A DNA stretch of 64,000 nt from Ceraceosorus guamensis (taxonomy: Eukaryota > Basidiomycota > Exobasidiomycetes > Ceraceosorales > Ceraceosoraceae). Below, piece by piece: positions 16,301 through 48,900 of the stretch. Under the pieces are notes generated by a model. That model ran no database searches. It saw only the letters and a program-made list of their open reading frames with translations, and was not told the origin of the DNA. Made by a program: the position numbers and the translations under genes. Location of the stretch: NCBI RefSeq assembly GCF_003144195.1, contig NW_020290020.1, positions 245,055 through 309,054 of the forward strand, given 5' to 3'. Position 1 is the stretch's first letter; each line of letters starts with the position of its first letter.

Positions 16301-19300
16301 GTTTGGTCGGCATCTGAAGCAGTATCTTGTCTCTGCAAGCGCTCTGCAACGGTGCCTCGCATATGCCGTGATACAAGAATGGGCAGTCTTTGCCAAGTCA
16401 CGGAACGTGTTCGAAGTATTGCGCTCAGGTAGTGTAGCACATGACATCTCCTCCATTCTGTTTGACCAAGTCGCTGCTCCGCCACCTCCGACTTACGGCG
16501 AAATGTCCGTAATGTTGCAGCGCATCCAATTGGAGTGCCAAGGACTCTTCAACACGGCTGCGAGAGAGGTCAAGGTTCCAAAAGCATCTGTTCCAGAGCT
16601 TCCGAGCACTGTCGATCCACTGGGTACCAACGCGAAGGCGTTTACTGTGGAACTCGCCAGATATGTTGTCAGTACGGGCCTACAAGAGCTCATCGACACC
16701 GGCGCGGCGTCATCAAAAGCGAAAAAAGTCGCGTTAGAGGGTCTCCAAGAAAGAGTGCGAAAACTTGTAACCTTGCTTGGCAGATATCAAGCTACCAAAG
16801 AGCAGCAGGATTGTCAGGTCTTTGCTGGGTGCGCGACAGCTCTGGTTGCTCTTGAGACTGTTCCTGCGAAACTCAATCCGCTCATCAAGAGCTTGATGAA
16901 TGCAGTCAAGGTGAGTGGATGATGATGGTCAGCGAACGAAGTCATGCTCAGACAACATCTTTCTGGTTTGACAGTTCGAGGAGAACATCGACCTACAGAT
17001 GCGAGCTGCGCGAGGGGTAGCCTGCCTGATCGCTCTATGCAGCAGACCAGACGCTCGTGCAAATCCTTCCGACAAAATCATCAAGAATTTGTGTGCTTTC
17101 GTCTGCCAGGACGTGTCAAAGACCCCTATCTTCACCGCCGTCAAAGCGGACCACCACGGCGTGCTCTTCCTGCGCGAGCAATCCTCGGTGCCGAGCGGTG
17201 CGCATGCTGCTGCGAAAACGGAGCAGCCCGACAAGACGGAAGAACAAAGGCAAGGCGAGCTTATTCGGAGAGGTGCTGAGGCCGCTTTAGGAGAAGTCGC
17301 AGAGGTCTTTGGGAAGGAAGCCTTCGCCCAGATCCCAACATTGTGGGACAACGCTTCGGGCGGACTAGCTTCAGCGCCTGCCACCGAAGACGATTTGGAT
17401 GATGCGAAAGGACAGGCAATCCTCGATTCTTGCACGCTGATCGGCGTACTGGTGCCACGACTGCACACGGGCCTTCAAGGCAAGGCTCTGGAGGTTCTCT
17501 CGCCGCTTACGCAGAGGCTGCGCAGTCAGTACACGGCTATTCGCGGCGCTGCCGCACGCACGTTGAGCATCCTTGCCAACAACTTGACCGAAAGGACATT
17601 GCTGCACATTGTCGAGCATGTTCTACCTCTGCTCGGGGATGCCACACATGCTGCCACACGCCAAGGTGCCGTCGAGACCTTGGCACAGGTCATCAAGGTG
17701 CTGGATGTCAAAATCCTGCCATACGTTATCTTGCTCGTTGTACCGGTCTTGGGACGCATGAGCGACGTGGACGAGCAGGTCAGGCTGACAGCGACCAGCT
17801 CGTTTGCCTCTCTCATCAAGATGGTCCCTCTCGAGGCTGGTCTTCCCGACCCACCGGGCTTCTCGAAGGAAATCTTGCTTCGCCGTGAGCAGGAAAGAAC
17901 CTTCTTGGCTCAGCTTCTCGACGGGTCCAGGGTGGAGCCTTACGAGCTGCCCGTCAAGATCAATGCTGACCTCAGGTCTTATCAGCGGGACGGAGTCAGC
18001 TGGATGGCCTTCTTGTCCAAGTTTCAGCTCCATGGCATTCTTTGCGATGATATGGGCCTCGGCAAGACACTGCAGTCCATATGCATTGTATCAGCTCGCC
18101 ATCATGAACGAGCTCAGCGATTCGCGGCAGGTCAGCCTCCAGACGCCGCGCCGTTGCCTTCACTCATCGTGTGCCCGCCTACCTTGGTGGGACATTGGCA
18201 CCACGAGGTGCAGAAGTACGCCAACAACTTGCGGCCTGTTATGTATGTAGGACAACCACAGGATCGGCGCTCGCTGCAAGCTCGGATACGACAATTTGAG
18301 GTTGTGATCACGTCATACGACGTCGTTCGCAATGATGTCGACTTCTTGTCGAGCATCGATTGGCTTTACTGCATCCTCGACGAGGGCCACGTCATCAAGA
18401 ACGCCAAGACGAAGACGACGCAGGCGGTGAAAAAGATTCGGGCTCAGCATCGATTGCTTTTGTCCGGCACGCCTATTCAGAACAATGTCCTTGAATTGTG
18501 GAGTCTCTTTGACTTCCTCATGCCTGGTTTCCTGGGCACCGAGCAGAGCTTTCAAGTGCGATACGCCAAACCTATTGGCGCCGCGCGAGAAGGGAAGGTT
18601 TCAAGTCGCGAACAAGAAGCTGCTACGCTTGCGCTTGAAGCGCTCCACAAGCAAGTGCTGCCATTCCTCCTTCGACGCCTCAAAGAGGATGTTTTGGACG
18701 ACTTGCCGCCGAAGATCATCCAGGATATCGAATGTGAGCTTGGACCCGTTCAGCGGAAGTTGTACGACGACTACCAGCGATCCGCGAACAGGCAGGAGCT
18801 CGAAGATGCATTGAGCTCCGAGCAGAAAAGTTCGGAGAGTGACAGCAAGCAACAGCACGTCTTTCAAGAACTGCAGTATTTGCGCAAGCTTGTCAACCAT
18901 CCCACACTCGTGTTCGACCAAGCCCGCGCCAATCATCGCGAAATCGAGAAAGAAATAGTCGCGGCGGGAGGATCGCTTCAGGACATCAGCCACGCGCCCA
19001 AGCTACTTGCTCTTCAGCAATTGCTCAATGACTGCGGGATTGGCGTCAAGGTGAAGACAGAGGCGTCAGACACGTTTGCGGAAGGCGCTGTGGCTCAACA
19101 TCGAGTGCTCATCTTCTGTCAGCTGAAGCAAATGCTAGACATTGTGGAGCAGCAATTGTTCCGAGTCCACATGCCGGATGTTTCCTACATGCGTTTGGAC
19201 GGAAGTGTCAGTGCAGACAAGCGCCATGGCATCGTGCAAACCTTCAACTCGGACCCAAGCATCGATGTTCTGCTTTTGACCACATCCGTGGGCGGCTTGG

Positions 19301-19775
19301 GCCTCACGCTCACCGGCGCTGACACAGTCATTTTCGTGGAGCACGACTGGAACCCTATGCGAGATTTACAGGCTATGGACCGCGCGCATCGTCTTGGTCA
19401 AAAGAAGGTCGTCAATGTGTACCGTCTCATCACCAGAGACACGCTCGAAGCTAAGATCATGGGGTGAGTACCCCAAAGTGATGACTCGAAAGGACCCCGG
19501 CTAACGGCATTCTCCTCCTTCGAATCTTCAGTCTGCAGCGCTTCAAATTGAACGTCGCGCACTCGGTTGTGACGCAGCAAAATGCTGGCCTAGAGAGCAT
19601 GGAGACAGACCAAGTTTTAGACCTGTTCGGAAGTGCGGATGAGGCGCAGCCGAATGGTTCTGGCACTGGTAAAGCATCAAGTAAAGGAATCAGTCAGCAA
19701 GCGCTGCTCGATGCCATCGAAAATGCGCCCGATACAGGCGACGACTACCAGTCGTCTAGCACTTGGACAATCTAA
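13362..19775 (+). CDS. mot1: TATA-binding-protein-associated Swi2/Snf2 ATPase Mot1 (BTAF1)
   Basis: Removes TBP from DNA with ATP hydrolysis. Exons 13362-13476, 13586-14462, 14527-15312, 15396-15577, 15657-16222, 16296-16910, 16975-19463 and 19532-19775 give 1,957 residues, the usual Mot1 size. A polyQ N-terminus (CAG repeat at about 13441-13461) precedes SRLDRLVGLL, the conserved Mot1 start. The HEAT-repeat half spans roughly residues 40-1330. The Snf2 ATPase follows: Walker A DMGLGKT (about 1405-1411), Walker B DEGH (about 1516), SGTPIQN, and motif VI RAHRLGQ (about 1850). A second in-frame ATG at 13377 could also start translation. The intron 2 donor (AACAA|GTGATT) is weaker than the others but restores the KKRILETSS reading frame. 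The gene converges on the gelsolin/GART gene with 127 bases between stops. Confidence 0.96.
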
Positions 19776-19902
19776 AACACTTTCTCACACATCGCTGGAC
19801 TCAGCCGGCGCATCAACAATTGATTGGGAATTGTGCGGGTGCGTGCCACCAATCGGATCAAATGTCATAATGAGCATTGCAGATCTTTGAGCAGGTTGAT
19901 CT

Positions 19903-22900
19903 TCAGAAAAGACCCTCCACGTTGGACGGGGCGACGCCACAAGGCAACCAGGTCGGATCTCGAAGCTCTCGAGCATCGAAGCTATGTCGTTCCAATTCTG
20001 TCCGCGCTTGTCTGAGGTTGAGCACGTTCATGAGTGATGTCGAGTCAAGTTCGAGGAGGCTAGGAGGCGCAGCATTCCATCCTCGAAGGAGTTTTTTGAG
20101 CTCAAGGGGGAGCGCACTGGGATAGATGACGACATGGGCAGGTGTTTCGGCCGCTTTATCACTGGACTCGGTCGAAAGGGTCGAATTCGAAGATGCTAGA
20201 GTTTCTGCAGCTCTCAATGCCAGATCGATGTCTTGGCGCGAGCTCCGAGCTTCTTGACCAATCAGTACGTACGTCTCTATTGACGAGTGCACAATCTGTA
20301 CAGTCGCTGGATCCAAGTCGTGCGCGCTTGCTGACTTTAGAGCATAAGTCTGGTCCAGACGAGGGGTGACCTTTGCATCCCTTACATCGTAGAGGATGGC
20401 TCCCTTTGCAGTGTACGAATCGGCGGATGCCACAGCATGCAAAGCCGATCGAGCATACGGTACTTCCTGGTCAAAGTAGGCCCAGAAAGTAGCATCTTCG
20501 GATCCTTCAATGTACTCCGCCACGTCAATTTCTGCCTCGTCGTGGCTGAACAAGCCAGGAAAGAGGGGAGCCACAAGAGCTCGCGTCGATTCGCGCTCAT
20601 TCTCCGTGGTGCCGAGCCCGTGCCAGAGGAAAGGGGTCCCCACCACACTAGCAATGTAGCCAAAAGCTGAGCACAAACTCGAAGTTTCCTGATGCGTTGT
20701 GTTCCAGCGCAGGAGCGAGCAAAGTCCAATCTCGGATCAACAAATGCAGCTTGAACCGGTGAAATTTTTGGAACAAACTCACCAAGTCCACCTGCTCAAT
20801 CAGAGTAGCGCCGTTCGGAAGAACTCTAATCTCGTACAAGATGGTGCTTTGTTCGTCCCACCTGGCTCTACTTCCAAATCTCGAGACGATTCCGTGCGGA
20901 AATGCATTCACCAAACCCTTGGGTTCATCGCCTACCCTAACCTCGACAACACTAGTGTTGAAGCGTTTCGCCAGGTCCTGAATCCTAGCCGTTTCCGCCG
21001 GACTCCTATTGATAGCTGACGAAGCTCTTCCTGTACGAATGAACAGCTCAGTGCGGACCAAAGAAGCTTCTCTTCGTCGATGTATCACTGCCAACGTCTC
21101 TCCTTCGTACAGGATGTGCTGCTCCGCTTCCGGAATGGTCACTGTGGATCCGGTAGGAAGCACAGAGATGACCTCGACGCTGAGAGTGTTCCGAGCATCT
21201 TCGAGCTGTTTCAAAGAAGCGCTGCGAGATTGCATCAGGCGCGCGTGCTCGGACGCAAAGGCCTTGGCGTCGAATGGGGCGGGAGAGATAAGTAAGAGAT
21301 CCAATTTGACGAGATTTTGGCTGGTGGGCGTAGCCACGACGGGCGAGACGGGCGAAAGGCCGACAGTCCCTGACCGATGATTGACAAATGCGCCAAGTTG
21401 AGCAGCCTGCGTCTCAAGCTTCCTGACGCTATCCGATCTGGTTGGCGCAGCAGATGCGTCTCTGGGCGCGGCAAGCTGATTCTGGGCCGGCACCGCTGCG
21501 TACATAGTCTGCGGTCTGTTTGCGCTCGAAATCTTCCTCGTTCGAACTGTCGATTGTTGAGCAGAGCTTGATTGGTCGCCCCATCTCGCAGCGGCCTCAG
21601 CTACGCTTCCTTCTGGCTGTTCGATCAAATCCGGCAAGGGCGATGATCCTCCATACACGCTTGATGGCCGACTAAGAGTGCGTCTTCGCGGCCGAGGTAC
21701 TGCGCCGCTCCCTGCGCTGCCTGAAGAGCTAGACAGGGGCGGTAGAGAGCCAGATGCAGCGGGTGCAATCGCGCTTGTAGGCGCATTGACATCGTCTGGA
21801 GAAACTTGCGTAGGTTGACCCCATGCGGCAATGGAATCCCTGACGCTTGCAAATTGAGCGTTCGAGTCCACTGTCTCAGATGCAGACTCTGTATGAGGCC
21901 TTGCGTACGCAAATGTAGCAGAGACGGGTGTTGGTGCTGATGGGCGAGGTGGCAAGTTCTGAGTTGGGGCCTGATACGCGCTCTTTTCTTCAAGTAGAGG
22001 GGAGGCTTTGGCCCGCACCGTCGACGTAGCCCACGGATTGACGATCTCCTGGCTCTGCACCTTCACCTTTGACTGCAGTTCTCGCTGCAGAATTTCTTTC
22101 GCTCCAGCAACGATGAGACCATGTTCCACGCTGTGCATTCTTTCCTGAAGTTCCTGCAAGCTCTCTCCTTTGCGCATGGGTATTTCCTGCACAATCACGG
22201 GTGCACCCCTATCCACCTCCGCAATGACTTCGTGCACCATGATGCCAGTCTTGTCCACTTTCCCGTCCTTGAAAGCTTCGTAAGCCCTCTCGATGGCCCC
22301 TGCTCCGTCGAACGCACCGGGTAAAGCCGGATGAAGGTTGATGATGGGCACAGCGCGAGCAGGTGCCCATGCAGGGACTATGCCCGGCGCTTCGTTCGTC
22401 TCGTGTCCAAAAGCTCTGAGGAAGGTGGGAGAGACGATGTGCATAAACCCAGCTAGGACGATGAGATCGGGAGCGAGCCCTTCGTGAGCGTTCATGACCT
22501 TCAATGCCAAATCCTCGTCGTAATCGTCCCGCGTTGCTCCCGGGTTCTTATTCTGATACGTCTTGAGCGCACTGACGAGCGTCGGAATAGGCGGATTGGC
22601 ACCCGCAGCTCTTTGCAATCCATACGCAGCCTTGCGGTTCGAAACGACCAGTGAAATTTGAGCGTTTGGCAACTCATCCCGATCGAGCAGGGTAGCGTCA
22701 ATTAGAGCTTGCAGATTGCTTCCGTTACCAGAGATCAACACGCAGATTCTCTTGCCACTTGTCGATCTCTGCTTGCCAGCTTCCGGAAGACCCGTTCGAA
22801 TGCCTTCTTCGACCTCTCGCACGCTCATCCGACCTGTAGAGTCTGCGCTCGCACGGTCCGAAGGTTTGATAGCTTGAAAAGTATCCTGCTCGCTTCCCAA

Positions 22901-24769
22901 TAAGCGCGAGATCGTCGGATCATCATTTTGCGGTGGTAGCGCAAGTATAGATGATATCGTGCGCTGATCTTCAGTCTGTGTATGTGACGCACGGATAGAC
23001 TCGCCAACTGGCGTGGACACCGCGTCACTTGCCGCACCTTGCAAGATAGTGCTGTCCGTAGCCGTAGCTTGTGTCGAAGGCTGTTTCCTAGCGCTCTTCT
23101 TTGGTCCCTTTGCTCTACCCGCGGCCAGATGTGTGAGTTTTTGCTCCGAAGTCTCTTTTTGCGCGGCCATTTGCTCAGCCGGGTCCGGATCGACTGGCGA
23201 GCGAGGTTTAAAGGGGCTGACAGCGCCGCCCATTCCGGGAAGCCTGATGGGCGCAACATTGACTCGTTCCGGGCTCGGGTCTCGTACAGGGGGCGGATGT
23301 ATGCGCGTGGGGCTGGGGCTCCTACCTGCCGCCGCACCCTCTGTCGCACTGCGAGGGGCTCCAAGGCCAGGCAGCATTTGCGCGCCCTTTCCAGGTGTCC
23401 AAGCTTTCTGGCTCGATGTCTGGGAAGCTTCATCAGCTTTGACAGCTGGCACTGTCCATTTCCTCGTCTGCGTGGCTGCGGGAGTGTTGGATTGGCTCGT
23501 CGGTGGCTGCATGGGCACCGGCAAGCTGCTGGCCGACGCAGTCTTGACAGGTGGTGTCCACTTTTTAGCACCGCTCCTCTGTGGAGGATCGCCAACCAGA
23601 CTAGGTGCAGCATCCGAATCGTTCGAGCCCGCTTCCCTCTCTTGAGCTTCTCGAAGGCGCTGCTGCACCATCGATCGACCTCTCAATCGTGTTATGCTAG
23701 CGCTTGGGGGCTTATCCGCGCTCGAAGGTGTCTGCGGAGAAAAGGCGGGCGAAACCTTTTGCGTGTTGTTCAAATTGGGACTTGCGATAGCTGAAGGGGA
23801 AGGTGATTTGGGCTGGGCTAGCGCGGGCGTCTGAACTTTGGGTTGCGAGTGTCGCTCGGGAGACGCGGGACGCAGAGGTGTCTGCCAAGAGCGCGTTGGA
23901 GATGTGGCGGTCCTGGTCGGAGACGGTGATCGAAGCGTGTTGGATGTGGTCGAAGTGCTCGACCCACCGCCAAGCACAGCGCCAGAAGCTCGTAGCGGAG
24001 CGTCCCAAGATCGTTTGCGCTCGGGAGAAGCAGGCCTAAGCGGCTCGGACTTGAGTATACTGGGCGATTCGGTGCGAATAGTGGTGCTGCTTGTCGTCGA
24101 AGCCCGTATAGGTTCTGGCAATTCGGGTCGAGCGGAGGCCATGGGCGTTGGACGCGTTGGGCTGGTCTGCCTTCTTTCCAAGTGCGTTTTGCCAACCACA
24201 TTACCAGCGCCTTGACCGTCTCTGTTCGCCAACTCCCTTTTGCGCGCTTCCATCATTCCCGCCATGCCTCCAGCAGGTCCGACGACCATTCCGTGCAGAG
24301 CCCTCTTTTGTTGAACTTCGCTTGCGCTCGTAGCACCTTGACACTCAGGAGGAGCGCTCCTTCCATCGCCTGCCAGCTTGCCCAACCTGGGACCTGCTGC
24401 TTTGCCTCCGATAAAGGAAGCAAGAGATGTGGGGCCTGCAGCGTTGACTGAAGCGTGGCCTGTCGGGCCCGCAGCTCCCCCATAGCGGGCCAAGAGACCA
24501 GCGCTAGATCGATTCGCACCCGTGACCGCGCCCGCACCCGCATCCATGCTCGAAGCTGCGAATGTTGAGGACGGCAGACCATCTGTACGGTTGGCAATAC
24601 CGCTTCCCATCGCAGCTCCTCCGCTCAACCTGCTACGCCTCTTGGCCCTATCTGCTCTGCTCCGAGCCACCTCCTCTTCAAGCTCTTGCTGCGTTTGCGT
24701 CCCGCTACCTCCCGTCTTGTGAGGACTGAGGGTCGAGTAACCGGCTGGGGATGATTGAGGAAAGTCCAT
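19903..24769 (-). CDS. DUF4045/gelsolin-repeat protein with embedded GAR transformylase
   Basis: Two minus-strand exons, 24769-20783 and 20688-19903, give 1,590 residues. Residues 1 to about 560 are disordered and rich in Ser/Pro/Arg, with the conserved DUF4045-like end (LTHLAAGRAKGPKKSARK). Residues about 674-885 form a complete phosphoribosylglycinamide formyltransferase domain: folate/substrate loop ISGNGSN (679-685), and catalytic N811, H813 (NLHPALPG) and D853 (EVDRGAPV). A second disordered linker follows to about 1145. Gelsolin-type repeats then run to the end (LSVEVISVLP, LYEGETLAVIHR, FLWHGLGTTENERE, WLPCGVAP). The open frame is continuous for about 4 kb, and the single intron restores the gelsolin frame (VDL|ETSSLCSAFGY). 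Known family roles: third step of de novo purine synthesis, and actin filament capping or severing. Whether one polypeptide does both here is inference. Confidence 0.88.
22115..22750 (-). other. GAR transformylase (Ade8/PurN) domain segment
   Basis: Segment of the fusion gene encoding the GART fold (about residues 674-885). It transfers formyl from 10-formyl-tetrahydrofolate to GAR. All key residues of the family are visible: the GNGSN loop, the AGFMHIVSP core strand, N811/H813 and D853. A short insert relative to E. coli PurN lies before INLHP (GHETNEAPGIVPAW). An in-frame ATG (22828, M648) sits 26 codons before the domain. A shorter Ade8-like product from an internal promoter is therefore possible but unproven. 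The flanks lack splice-site pairs that would obviously detach the domain. Confidence 0.9.
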
Positions 24770-25428
24770 GGTTCGTGTGACTTGCCACGCTTACACTTAG
24801 CGCGTCGAAGGAATGGGGAACTGTTGGAATGTGAGCGGGAGTGTCACCGTGATCGTTGGCGCAATTGCAGTTGCAGTTGTAATAAAGCTGGTGATGCTGG
24901 ACTCGACCGCGAATCTTGAATGGAGGGCTGCACTGCACGGCCATGTATATACAGCGGGGACACCTATGCAGTCACGAGCGTCGCCAGCCCATAATCGTGA
25001 AGCGTGAATCGTGAATTCCGCCGCCTGCGCCCCTGATTTTGACGCGTCACGTGTTGCGTTGCACGTGGCTGATCACGGCCTCAAGACGCGCGCGTAACAC
25101 AACCCATCACTCAGACTATCGTATACATGCCCACGCTCCACTCTCTCTCCTCCTGCTGTCTAGCCCCTCAAGTTGACTTCACGGCTTGTGGCTAGACTCT
25201 GACTCTCACACTTGCCGACACACTTGACTCACAGACACACTTGGACGCTAGCGCATCTCGACTGAGACCAGACGCATCCTCGAAGCTGAAGCGACGCGCG
25301 TGTAAATGCCTCGGTGAGACCGATAGTCACTTGATTGCCATTTCCACTTTCAAAGGACTTGCAATTGAGATCGGAAATCGAGCATACCTTCGGTGCGTCC
25401 TGCGCCAACTTCAAGCATCGCGAGCAAG
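24770..25428. other. Divergent promoter region gelsolin-GART / eaf6
   Basis: 659 bases between divergent starts; no gene supported. It contains a TATATA element at about 24944-24950 and a cluster of the AATCGTGAA/GTGAATCGTGAATT word at 24991-25018. CT-rich tracts at 25139-25160 and repeated CACTTG/GACTC words at 25190-25235 lie before eaf6. Confidence 0.5.
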
Positions 25429-26145
25429 ATGCCAGCAGCGTCATCCATATCCGCGGCATCGATAAAGTCAGGGGCAGGAGCATCTACCGCCACCACCTCG
25501 TTACCCGGCTCGCTAGAAGAGGCCAAAGAGCGCTACGAGTCGACCAAGTCCACGCTGCGCTCCGGCCTTTCCAAAAAGCGACAAATCGATCGAACATTGA
25601 CGGATCTCGAATCTCAGATCTACCTCTTCGAAGGCAGTTATCTATCCAGCACAGCTTCTAGCGGTGGGAACATCATTAAGGGATTCGATGGCTATCTAAA
25701 GTTGGCACATGGTGGGAGGAGCGGGGCGACTGGAGGAGGAGGAGGATCAGGAGGCATCTCGGGATCCATGTTAGGACTCGCGCCTTCTGAAATTCCAATC
25801 GAAGACAGATTGTTTAGCACTTCATCAGCAACCTACACGCGTTCGCTGGAGCTCAAGGCTAATGAGGGCAAAAAAGCAGCGAGTCACGCAACGGCTTCAT
25901 CCGCACGCAATTCTGTCGCTGGGACAGGCGCGGACGACGCTCCGCCGCCCTCTTCCAAGAAGGGGTCAGCGGCTGCCAACAAGGCTGGTAGTCCAACTCC
26001 CTCTACTACACACGACGAACCTTCACAGAGCACGAGCACGGCTACGAGCACCAAAAAGAAGAGGAAAGAAGCCCCCAATGCTTCGGCGGGAGCGAATGCG
26101 AGCGGAGAGACGAGCAAGAAGAAGAAGAAGAAAGAGGAGGATTGA
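25429..26145 (+). CDS. eaf6: Eaf6, NuA4/SAS-type histone acetyltransferase subunit
   Basis: Small coiled-coil subunit of NuA4 (and NuA3-like) histone acetyltransferases. Single exon, 238 residues. The first true ATG is 25429; the frame is open further upstream but without ATG. The conserved Eaf6 core is at residues about 30-88: LEEAKERYESTKSTLRSGL, then DLESQIYLFEGSYLSST and GNIIKGFDGYL. This is the family's coiled coil plus the invariant G-N-I-I-x-G-F-x-G-Y-L motif. After residue 95 the protein is low complexity (Gly, Ser, Ala) and ends in a Lys-rich nuclear-localisation-like tail (KKKKKKEED). It is longer than yeast Eaf6 (113 residues) because of this tail. Confidence 0.93.
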   Translation: MPAASSISAASIKSGAGASTATTSLPGSLEEAKERYESTKSTLRSGLSKKRQIDRTLTDLESQIYLFEGSYLSSTASSGGNIIKGFDGYLKLAHGGRSGATGGGGGSGGISGSMLGLAPSEIPIEDRLFSTSSATYTRSLELKANEGKKAASHATASSARNSVAGTGADDAPPPSSKKGSAAANKAGSPTPSTTHDEPSQSTSTATSTKKKRKEAPNASAGANASGETSKKKKKKEED

Positions 26146-36302: not shown

Positions 36303-38618
36303 CTAGGGTTCAGCCAATAGACTTTTGAGCGCATGTTGTAGCCTCTGATCCACCTCTTCAGCCGTCACTCTAAAGTGCTCCGCCGTGATGCGAGCCACAC
36401 ACGGAGTATCTGCCATATCAGGCACTGCGAAAGAGAAGAATAGGAGCCAGAGAGACCTGAAAATGAGCACGAGGTCTTTCGTTGTGTGACAGCAGCTGAT
36501 ATGTCGACGACTTACCGGTGCGGGATGCCAAAGGCGCTTCGTCGCGGTGCAAAGAGCTTGCCGTGTTGGGCGCTGGCGCTGCGAGACCGTTCGGAATGGG
36601 CAAGGCGCCATTGTGCTGGTGTGAAAGTTGATTGACACCGTTGCCAGTATGCAGCCTGTTGGACGACTTGAAATGGCTCCTCAACGCAGATCTTTCGCAC
36701 CTTCGCATCACACTGCAAAAGGTCTGAGCTAGAGTGCGCAAGATCTGCAAGACGGTGGCTTGGCGACTCTGATCGTTCCTTCTTCTGGCTGCTTGCGCTT
36801 CGACGTCGTCCAATGGCAGGTCATCCCAGATAGAGGTGGCTGTGATGTCGTTGCACAAGGAGGCTGCTAGCATGGACGCCTGTCCGCCGGATTGCGAAGT
36901 GCAACTCGACTGCGGCGATCTTCCAGGCACACGAGGGCTATCACGTCTCCGTGATTGCGCATCGTCAGACTCGTCGCTGATCTTGAAATCTATGCTCTCG
37001 AGTATGGCTGCACAGGAAAGCTGAGCAGTGACGAGGGGAGAGCAGTAGGCAAACAGCTCCATTCCACCAAGGATCTTCAGGTGGGACGGTGCGTTCGGGC
37101 AATGATCTCGAGCGATGCAAGCGCCAGCCAGTCTGACCAGTGCGCTCGTGGTGAGTGAGGCCTGAGTCATCCAGAGCATACCGCTCGTCGCAGTAGGTGG
37201 TGCTTGATTCGGAATAGGCCGACTGGTCGATCTCGCAAGATGGCTGTTGCTCTCTATCCACACGATCGTAGTCGCGAGGTGATTGATGGACTCTCCGAGA
37301 AGTCCAAACAGCGTTTGAACCGCCGCACGCCGCTCTTCTTTGCTGAACGACATTCGATCTTGCAAGGGGGCATGCGCGAGACCCACTGTGCCCTGTGAAT
37401 AGTCGTCCGGAGGGCTTGAAAAGATCTGTTGGAAATCTTCGGTAGCCTCTTGTATCTCTCTGGACAATCTGGTAGACTGCGAATCCAGCGACAAAGTTGG
37501 CGAACCATGTCGTATACTCGAAAGGCTGCTGCGACGGTCGCTCGCGACAGGTTGGGTCGTAACACTTGCGCATAGAGGCTCTAGCAGGAGCACGTCTTGC
37601 ACAGAATGTAAGTCGTCACGTTTCGATTGAGATCGCCGGCGCGGACAAGAGATGTGCGGCTCACCTGGTGGGCTGTTTTCTAATTGTGTCGATTCGGATT
37701 TCACGACCGTGGGATAGAGTGCGCCAGAATGGGTGGTAGAAAGTTCGATCTCGGCCGGTACGAAGTTGGACGCAGGGGCTGTGGTTGACCAGTCGCGAAA
37801 CGTCGATACGGCGTCTTGACTGGTGGGAAATTGACTGGCGACGCTCGGTGGGTTTGAGGGGTCCAAAGGCTGCCACCATTGCTGCGGCGGAGCAGATGAT
37901 TGGCTCAAGATGCCAGCCATCTCTTCTTCGAGACTTGCCGAGCCACGAGAGGACAAAGCTGCGTTTGTGCCTGGATCGCTCGAGCCGTTGAGAGCAAAGA
38001 TCGCCATGGTCCTAGCGGACCAATTCGGTGGATCCCTGCGCTGAACAGCGTCTGGCAAGCCTGGGAAAGCGTTGGGGATGAAATCACCATAGTATGAGTC
38101 GGAGCTGGTCGCCGCAACTTCGGCGGGTTGCAAAGCGACGGTCGAGCCGTTGTTTGATGTCCAGGATGGAAAGCTGAGATGAGATTGCTCCGATAGCGCG
38201 CTGCTAAAGCGCCGATGTTGTGCGAAGTTGTGCTCGTTCTCCGAGGCAGTGCTTTCATCGTGCGTACTGTCGCGTCTGCTGTCATCTTCCTCGCTTCGTC
38301 TTCGCTTCTTTGTCCGACGCGGATCGGGAGGCGAAAAGTGACAAGGGATGCCCAGACGAATGCATCGTACGCAAGACGCCGTTGGTGCAGCTCCGTCCGG
38401 AGCGGGTACAGCACCTGGACCAGGCAGGCATTTGACCTTGTTGGCGTGACACTATGACGGTCACACCAGCGATACGATGAAATAAAGAGGTGCCGTTTCA
38501 GCATCGAGATGTGCAGTGGATGCCAAAGCTGGAATGTGGGAGCCTTTTCACCACTCACATCGTCACATGCCTTTCTGAATTTTGCCGGTGGCTTTGGCAC
38601 CATCTTGGGCACGGTCAT
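36303..38618 (-). CDS. Zn(II)2Cys6 transcription factor
   Basis: Minus-strand exons 38618-38559, 38451-36516 and 36424-36303 give 705 residues. The fungal binuclear zinc cluster is split by the first intron: KACDD|CHANKVKC from exons 1 and 2, then SCVRCIRLGIPC. Cysteine spacing is C-x2-C-x6-C-x18-C-x2-C-x6-C; the 18-residue loop is longer than the usual 5-12. A basic NLS-like RRTKKRRRS follows. The rest is Ser/Gln-rich with helical stretches (RRAAVQTLFGLLGESINHL) and a conserved-looking C-terminal helix (TAEHFRVTAEEVDQRLQHAL). A possible 69-base in-frame intron at about 37604-37672 would shorten the protein by 23 residues; I cannot decide. Target genes unknown. Confidence 0.88.
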
Positions 38619-45948: not shown

Positions 45949-48900
45949 TTACTTTTTGGAAGAGAACAAATTCTAGGACAAAGCCGGCAATCAATAGTCA
46001 GCAGCAACTCTTCTCACAGTCGCATCCTACATCCATCCCGAGGGCGCGCGACTCACCTTGAGCCTCTTTTTCTCCTTGCCAGCTGCTCCAACAGGGTTGC
46101 TTTGAATGGAATAAGTAGCGGAAGGAGCTGGACTGAGGGACCTGCCGTCTGCAGACTGGTGACCCGACGTCGAAACGGCGCCCGAGGCCTGATGGTGCGA
46201 GTTATACAAGGAAGCGCTCGAAGATGGTCCATATGTCTGAGGAGCACGTGAAGCTTGCGGCCGAGAAGCCGAGCTATGGTTTGATTGAGCGCTCGATTGT
46301 CCGTATCCGTGATGAGAAGTGTCTTGCGGAGCAGGCGCAGCTCCTCCCCCATAGCGACGCTCGTATGCTCCTTGATCAGCCTCGAATCGTTGAGATGGAA
46401 CCGAGGCTGAATGGCCATTGCGCCCGCCTCCGTAACCCTGCTGATGTGCACTATCTCCATAATCTGCATACTGACGAGATCCTCCTCGACCGGAGCGCGC
46501 AGCGGCAGCACTAGATCGCAAGCCGCTCGCATCGTTATCCGGCTTCGAAAATTGATTTGCGCCGGTCGGAAGACCGCTCGCAAGGCCAGGTCGACCGCCA
46601 GAATGATGCTGGCCTGCACCTTGGTGATGATGTGCGCCAGCTCCACTCGCCTTGCCGAACCTTTTCAGCGAGTCGAGGAAGGAAGCAGGAGTAAAAATGT
46701 GCGAAGAGCCTGGAGAGGCGTCAAGATATCAGGGTGAGTCGCGTGTTCCCGCGCAGAGCTCTTCTCTGTGGGTTTGACTCACCAATATAGACGTCTTTGG
46801 CCAACCTATCTGAGATTTGATAGGCGCTGCGGACCTCAGAGTAAGTCATGCCACCAGCAACGAACACGAGCACTCTCTGCCTTGTAATGTCAGCCCGTTC
46901 CGCGTGGTTGCTGCTGCCCCCGCTATGTCCTCCACCTCTGCCTTTCTGGGCCCACGTGGGCTTTGCAGATCTCAAGCTAGTCGGGGGTCCTCGGGGCGCA
47001 GCTGCATTGCCGCTCAAAGCAGGGCTTGCGCCCCTTGAGATGGCCGATGCCGCATCTCTCAGGCTGCCCAGTCCTCCGGTGCTCGCTGCGCTAAGCGAGG
47101 ATGCGGACGCAAAGTCGGGGGGCGCATCCTTGACGTAGGGATAGGTGGTCTGGTCCAGCCTTCCCGCAAAGTGATCCTCCAGCATGAGCTTGACCAAAGG
47201 CTGGTACCTGCTCAGCTCGTACTCGTTTTCGCCCGGCGCTTGCCTCCTCTTGCCCTTCTTGAACCACGCGTCCCACCCACTGTTCTGGGGATCCTTGAGT
47301 ACTCTAGCCCCCAAGTGCACCAGATTGTCCACTGCGTCCATCTCGTGCAGACCCAGCCTGGCGTGCTGAAACAGCCGTTTCCGGTCCTCGTCCGGAACGC
47401 CTTCGCTATACATGATGTAAAGCGCGATGATACGGACCTTGTCCGCGTTGCTGATCTCTCGATCATCCAACAGTGGCACCATATCCTCGACCAAGGTCCG
47501 CGGTTTCGCTCCATCGGGCGTTGTCCTCGTTGCACAGTTCTGTTCAACCATGGCCTGCTGTGGTAGTCTGCTTCTCTCGAAGATGTTCATGCACTCCTGT
47601 GCCATAGTCAAATGCAGACTCAACGCCTCTTTGGTCTCTTGCATCTCAGGCAGAGTCGCGAGCATGTCCCTCATGTCATGCAGACTGCTCGAATTTTGAT
47701 GAGCTGCTGCGGTTCCTGCGTGCTGCGTGAAATCCTTCGTCAACCTGTCGATTGCCTCGGCAATGTGAAGGTGCCTGATTGCCCTCCACACACTCTCTTC
47801 GTCGGACAATCGTGCTCTTCTGTCCTCCTTCTGGCCGACAGCGTTCAGGAACTTGTAAGAATAGACTGTCCCGTCTTCTTCGAGAGGCAGCAAATCAGCC
47901 ACCATTGCTTGGTATGAGAATTCGTGCAGGAAGGGTGACACTGTATCCATAGTCCGGTCCGTGATGAACAAGACACCCCTTGGCCTCGTCGAGTCGGGCT
48001 TGGGCTGATTATCGGCCACGTAGGCATCGATGGCTTCTTGCAATCGGAGCGCCAGCTTGCGGGTGAAATGATCCGGACCCGACGCAGCACCCGGCCTGCC
48101 CGCTGCGCTCGAATCGCCTCCCGCTCGTAGTCGGGCCATGCGCATGCTAGAGGCGTAGGCGGAAGCTGGCGCGGGTGCGGGGATCGTCCCGCTCGACTCT
48201 CCTTGTTGATTTGCCAGAGGTCCCAGCGGCGGGTGAGAAGGATTGTAGTATCGTATCAAGGGAAACTCGTTAAGAGAGACGCATACATTGAGCAAAGTCT
48301 GCACGCTGAATTGCAGTTCCTCCTCGATGCCTTTGAGGGCTTCGGCCGAATCCACTCCCCATGCTCCTCCAGGAGGCTGAAAGATGGTGAAGAATGATTC
48401 TGGCGTCTTTAATGAGAATACCTGAGCCTCGAGTGCTGCATTGCATGAGGGAGAGGCGGGGCCCTAGTCAGCACCGAATAGGGAATAGGACGCGCAGGGC
48501 ACGCATGTACGCACCCCAGAAGTTGTTGTACAATTCGATGACTTGCCGCAAGCGCGGCTCAGCGGGTGAGCTCGTCAGTCGCTGCAGCAAGGCGTCAGAG
48601 AGAGCTGCGAGCAGGAGGGTCGTCGGTCATTGTGTTCAAGGTCAATTGGGCCACAGTCTATGAGCGCGGCCTTCCAGCCTTAGTCTTATTACGAACGCCC
48701 TTGCCCGTTCCCGTCGGCATCGAAGCCACTTCATTACTCACCATCAACGAAGAAAACATGACCCGCGCTGTACCTCGTCGATCCCGTCGCATGATCAGGT
48801 GTCAGGTCCCTGATGATCCTCTCGATGTTGCTTGACGTGGGCGTTACAAAGTACGCAGCCTCGTAGTTGGGCTGCGCTTCTCTGTTGCCATTCTCCAAGT

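Follow-up and report, generated by a model that had tools for sequence, protein, structure and literature searches.

In fungi, glycinamide ribonucleotide (GAR) transformylase has been described as a separate protein. One study treats Ade5,7 and Ade8 of yeast as two proteins and describes MoAde8 in M. oryzae (PMC9502316), and the gene table of another lists fungal GAR transformylase as a separate protein (PMC10879430). A first-pass annotation of the DNA studied here likewise took fungal Ade8 to be normally an enzyme of its own. Vertebrates have a trifunctional protein (GARS, GART and AIRS) in which the GART domain lies inside a longer chain, together with partners that, according to a review, catalyze two further steps of the pathway, 2 and 5 (PMC10912719). 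Chimeric metabolic genes also occur naturally in basidiomycetes: SPDS-SR joins two metabolic enzymes that are separate in ascomycetes (PMC10051792). Here, we describe a predicted gene on the minus strand of a 64,000-nucleotide stretch of Ceraceosorus guamensis DNA (the whole stretch is called the window, and positions are counted from its first letter), in which an Ade8-like domain lies in mid-chain within 1590 residues and is followed by a gelsolin/villin-like tail.

The enzyme part agrees with fungal Ade8 and bacterial PurN (TIGR00639) in a near full-length domain with the N-H-D residues, the phosphate loop and a score above the equivalog cutoff; its position in mid-chain sets it apart from the free-standing fungal enzymes. 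With vertebrate GART it shares the location inside a multidomain protein, yet in the present chain the partner is similar to a cytoskeletal protein and not to another enzyme of the pathway. As in SPDS-SR, a fungal biosynthetic gene appears to have been fused, although only one of the two partners is a metabolic enzyme; since SPDS-SR shows that chimeric metabolic genes exist in basidiomycetes, a natural chimera is plausible. Much of the C-terminal 440 residues can be aligned with villin and gelsolin, as expected for the gelsolin/villin superfamily, from which the protein departs by the remoteness of the similarity, the lack of a reported match to the Pfam Gelsolin model, an unusual N-terminal partner and actin binding that is putative. 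A further fungal protein with gelsolin domains, reportedly the subject of a 2020 article by Mamun et al. in Mol Microbiol, is a septum protein that the title of the article links to contractile actin ring assembly and calls Pezizomycotina-specific; it may be comparable to the present tail. In a literature search, with most subscription journals outside its coverage, none of the papers among those listed paired gelsolin with phosphoribosylglycinamide formyltransferase. We regard the chimera as an unusual and still unproven new pairing of two known families.

We think it probable that a single gene encodes a chimera of about 168 kDa, in which an active, independent Ade8 domain and a gelsolin-type tail are held on flexible linkers, the tail serving mainly for co-expression and loose co-localization. 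At the level of sequence, this is supported by the continuous frame, the identities of both domains, the N-H-D residues and the codon bias of exon 1. The predicted parts of the gene are as follows.

20783 to 24769, minus strand: exon 1, codons 1-1329, an open reading frame (ORF) from the ATG at 24769, with its frame favored by codon bias in 35 of 43 windows
22772 to 24769, minus strand: N-terminal 666 residues, low-complexity, rich in P, S and A, probably disordered (16% order-type residues; nothing found in Pfam at E up to 10)
22076 to 22753, minus strand: GAR transformylase (PurN/Ade8) domain, residues 673-898, with N811, H813 and D853 (TIGR00639, PF00551 and PDB matches, residue positions)
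21335 to 22054, minus strand: low-complexity linker, residues 906-1145 (19% order-type residues, free of in-frame stops, coding-bias z of 2.2)
20783 to 21319, minus strand: gelsolin-like region from exon 1, residues 1151-1329 (DUF7904 below cutoff; covered by gelsolin/villin matches)
20689 to 20782, minus strand: predicted 94-nucleotide intron, GTGAGT...CATCAG (restores the frame; ungapped villin alignment over the join, worse score of an alternative junction, change of the coding-bias frame after it)
19903 to 20688, minus strand: exon 2, residues 1330-1590 of the gelsolin-like tail and the stop codon (gelsolin/villin matches extend into it)

The open-frame reading of the window places the start of the ORF at the ATG at 24769 and finds no stop until 20648. 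Its predicted exon part (24769-20783) is an uninterrupted run of 1329 codons, for which base composition gives a chance probability of about 7e-22, and a second open stretch, in another frame of the same strand, ends at the stop at 19903. Removal of one intron joins the two into a continuous frame of 1590 residues that stops at 19903 and predicts a protein of 167.9 kDa with an isoelectric point of 9.1. Both the open frame of about 4 kb spliced once to a gelsolin tail and the predicted product of about 170 kDa, as originally proposed, are thus recovered.

GT...AG pairs near the junction were enumerated; many of them preserve a single frame, and one alternative was compared with the accepted pair by searching with the resulting tails. 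We prefer the junction GT 20782 / AG 20689, because its donor is the only GTGAGT in the gene and the tail so joined matches villin-1 at E=5.2e-5, with gap-free alignments through the join to two villins. With the alternative junction, the best PDB match falls from 5.2e-5 to 0.009, and a single villin is found among four sequences. A search for the donors GTRMGT and GTATGT in exon 1 returned, besides the terminal GTGAGT, GTGCGT at two places, close to residues 592 and 817, and no donor of either pattern between the enzyme and the intron. A combined pattern search (GTRNGT donor, CTRAY branch, YAG acceptor) gave zero candidates and missed the accepted intron as well, and is hence uninformative on other introns.

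Coding bias was scored with a codon table derived from 2864 codons of five long ORFs in other parts of the window, all presumed to be coding (Pfam domains are present in three, a fourth has no match at 0.001, and the fifth was unscanned), with stops neutral, z values taken against base shuffles, and windows of 60 codons. The ORF frame ranks top of the six frames in all four sections of exon 1, with z values of 5.1 for the N-terminus, 6.6 for the enzyme, 2.2 for the linker and 4.4 for the gelsolin part, and in 35 of the 43 windows. In control stretches presumed mostly non-coding, an arbitrary frame was best in 1/5, 2/13, 3/16 and 4/11 windows. Past the intron, the coding signal shifts to the predicted exon-2 frame. 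There are zero in-frame stops from the enzyme through the gelsolin part, and therefore a ribosome that reads the enzyme should enter the tail unless RNA processing intervenes. Within the linker, the ORF frame has no stop and each of the other five frames has 2 to 12; by base composition, a stop-free linker has a chance probability of 3e-4.

The full PurN/Ade8 domain that had been proposed, with N811, H813 and D853 at these very positions, holds up. Residues 673-898 score 158.4 bits against the PurN equivalog TIGR00639 (curated cutoff 150.1) and cover positions 1-189 of the 192 in the model; PF00551 matches residues 673-887 at E=1.2e-33. A PDB search to E=0.001 returned 18 sequences, every one of them a PurN or GART enzyme by name, the best at 1.1e-20. 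N811, H813 and D853 align with N106, H108 and D144 of a PDB GART chain that we take to be the human enzyme, where these are presumably the catalytic residues, and H846 aligns with H137. The GSN loop is retained. R90 and H121 of the same chain are replaced by His777 and Ile826, and substitutions of this type are common among fungal Ade8 proteins. The domain appears to be complete and is probably active.

The last 440 residues, joined by the preferred splice, resemble gelsolin and villin. Among the 22 PDB matches to the tail at E up to 10, headed by villin-1, 18 are gelsolins or villins and the remaining four are chitinase-like, with E values of at least 1.3. A second villin alignment spans tail residues 92-338, and in our own reading the tail may contain three gelsolin-like repeats. 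DUF7904 (PF25480), the only Pfam family reported for the tail, scores 22.2 and 26.8 bits, under its 30-bit cutoff; the 26.8-bit match overlaps the first gelsolin-like stretch (20783-21319, minus strand), a hint that this family could represent a diverged gelsolin repeat. We base the gelsolin assignment on the PDB sequence matches. They extend across both exons and favor the gelsolin repeats of the earlier proposal.

The regions around the enzyme have a different character. Order-type residues make up 16% of residues 1-666 and 19% of residues 906-1145, as against 31% in each folded part, and a PDB search with the linker gave a single match at E up to 10 (E=0.25). The N-terminal 666 residues are probably disordered, judging by this composition. 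They have no Pfam match at E up to 10, although the HMMER filters could hide a very diverged one. The first-pass annotation had called this part DUF4045-like, a label that finds no support, as Pfam returns nothing for residues 1-666, assuming that the DUF4045 model is present in the library searched. The remainder of the proposed architecture, a disorder-like N-terminus, the enzyme and a gelsolin-like tail in one frame, stands.

Several observations weigh against the single-chimera interpretation. The gelsolin similarity is remote (E=5e-5), and the Pfam Gelsolin model (presumably PF00626) gave no reported match in the tail at E up to 10, a search in which HMMER filters drop weak matches. AlphaFold, run without an alignment on two pieces, reached a mean predicted local distance difference test score (pLDDT) of only 39.3 and 36.5, and the models are unusable. 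The accepted intron contains no CTRAY branch match under the pattern used. The coding signal of the linker is weak, and another frame outscores the ORF frame in 8 of the 43 windows. GC content varies by section: it is near 0.60 over much of the N-terminus, 0.52-0.57 in the enzyme, 0.55-0.59 in the linker and roughly 0.52-0.54 across most of the gelsolin section. We read this variation as the composition of low-complexity coding DNA; it is no evidence of a single origin. Finally, the in-frame ATG of M648, upstream of the enzyme, permits a shorter start, albeit in a weak context.

This last point leads to the idea that the locus gives rise to nested or alternative transcripts, with a short protein resembling Ade8 and a distinct gelsolin-like one made from internal promoters or starts, by alternative splicing or by early polyadenylation, and that the full chimera is rare or absent. 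In-frame ATGs are available both upstream of the enzyme (residue 648) and downstream of it (residues 1089 and 1179), the low-complexity flanks should tolerate such boundaries, and mammalian GART also yields a short product through alternative processing. However, M648 has a C at -3, whereas the ATG at 24769 has an A at -3 and a G at +4, and a short enzyme would run on into the gelsolin part unless an intron or a poly(A) site has escaped notice, with no donor of the searched patterns between the two. We consider this explanation unlikely. Smaller still is the chance that we give to a surplus copy, that is, to a normal ade8 elsewhere in the genome that would make the fused domain a passenger or a regulatory remnant in a gelsolin-family protein. 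The score above the equivalog cutoff and the preserved N-H-D residues, GSN loop and H846 speak against decay, not against duplication. No second ade8 was found in the window (tblastn, E up to 0.1), which is a small part of the genome.

An assembly artefact, in which neighboring ade8 and gelsolin-type genes were misjoined, is the kind of error that the unequal GC content of the sections could reflect, and it would also fit the lack of relatives in the viral, bacterial and archaeal collections. A false join would nevertheless have had to preserve one frame through the N-terminal part, the enzyme and the 240-codon linker, and the P value of 3e-4 concerns the linker alone; moreover, the window sequence contains no N. 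Given this continuity of the frame and the GC difference notwithstanding, we judged an assembly chimera highly improbable, and from the sequence a true fusion appears likelier than two misjoined genes. Regarding relatives, viral contigs scanned with the exon-1 ORF, exon 2 and the enzyme region gave 0 confirmed relatives (8, 10 and 6 short-pattern stretches, respectively), and bacterial and archaeal genomes scanned with the enzyme region also gave 0 (92 short-pattern stretches). Such single-protein queries reach close relatives only, so that absence from these collections says little on fungi.

For the single chimera that we favor, the following model can be suggested. The enzyme part, flexibly tethered and acting as a unit of its own, would catalyze step 3 of purine synthesis, the conversion of GAR and 10-formyltetrahydrofolate to formyl-GAR (FGAR), and the tail would bind actin like other gelsolin repeats. 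By co-expression and loose co-localization, the tail would chiefly determine where and when the enzyme is produced, and neither channeling nor regulatory coupling would be necessary. Probably, an ade8 coding sequence was fused in frame to a gelsolin-repeat gene, or placed within a disordered stretch of it.

A stronger version, in which a conserved fungal protein couples step 3 of purine synthesis to actin and, as the sole GAR transformylase copy, is anchored or regulated at actin structures, for example septation rings or the tips of growing cells, seems to us decidedly doubtful. The first-pass annotation had gone in this direction with the thought that the enzyme, and perhaps a purinosome-like assembly, might be anchored on actin, and had named as the alternative a fusion that was simply tolerated once ade8 had been inserted. 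According to a review, the purinosome marker FGAMS co-localizes with microtubules rather than actin filaments, and purinosome formation is altered by nocodazole and not by cytochalasin D (PMC10912719). Because FGAMS sits with microtubules, the link between actin and purinosomes is without outside support; these data do not refute such a link in the present species, and they lend it no weight either.

Should the chimera be produced and provide the cell's only GAR transformylase, a purine enzyme would be obligatorily attached to a protein of the actin-binding type, providing a natural test of whether the location of a purine enzyme matters. A fusion found throughout a clade would also serve as a clean evolutionary marker; one confined to a lone species would be a curiosity that shows how flexible linkers can tolerate an enzyme domain.

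The fusion gene is flanked by a MOT1/BTAF1-like ATPase gene (16972-19464, plus strand) and a NuA4 subunit-like gene (25369-26142, plus strand). The former encodes an SNF2 ATPase with SNF2 and DUF3535 domains and converges with the fusion gene, facing its 3' end. Its four best PDB matches are titled 'Helicase-like protein', entries that we take to be Chaetomium Mot1. Over 19460-19819, one plus-strand frame stays positive in the coding score windows, which suggests a further exon. The ORF at 25369-26142 resembles a NuA4 histone acetyltransferase subunit (PF09340) and is transcribed away from the fusion gene; the starts of the two ORFs lie about 600 bp apart, so that they may have a promoter region in common. 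No RNA genes were found in the 64-kb window (Rfam at gathering thresholds; ARAGORN). Farther away, a long minus-strand ORF (36421-38451) has no Pfam match at 0.001 and, in our own reading, an N-terminal cysteine pattern like that of Zn2Cys6 transcription factors, and another minus-strand ORF (46724-48463) belongs to the Sec1/Munc18 family (PF00995, with matches to syntaxin-binding proteins).

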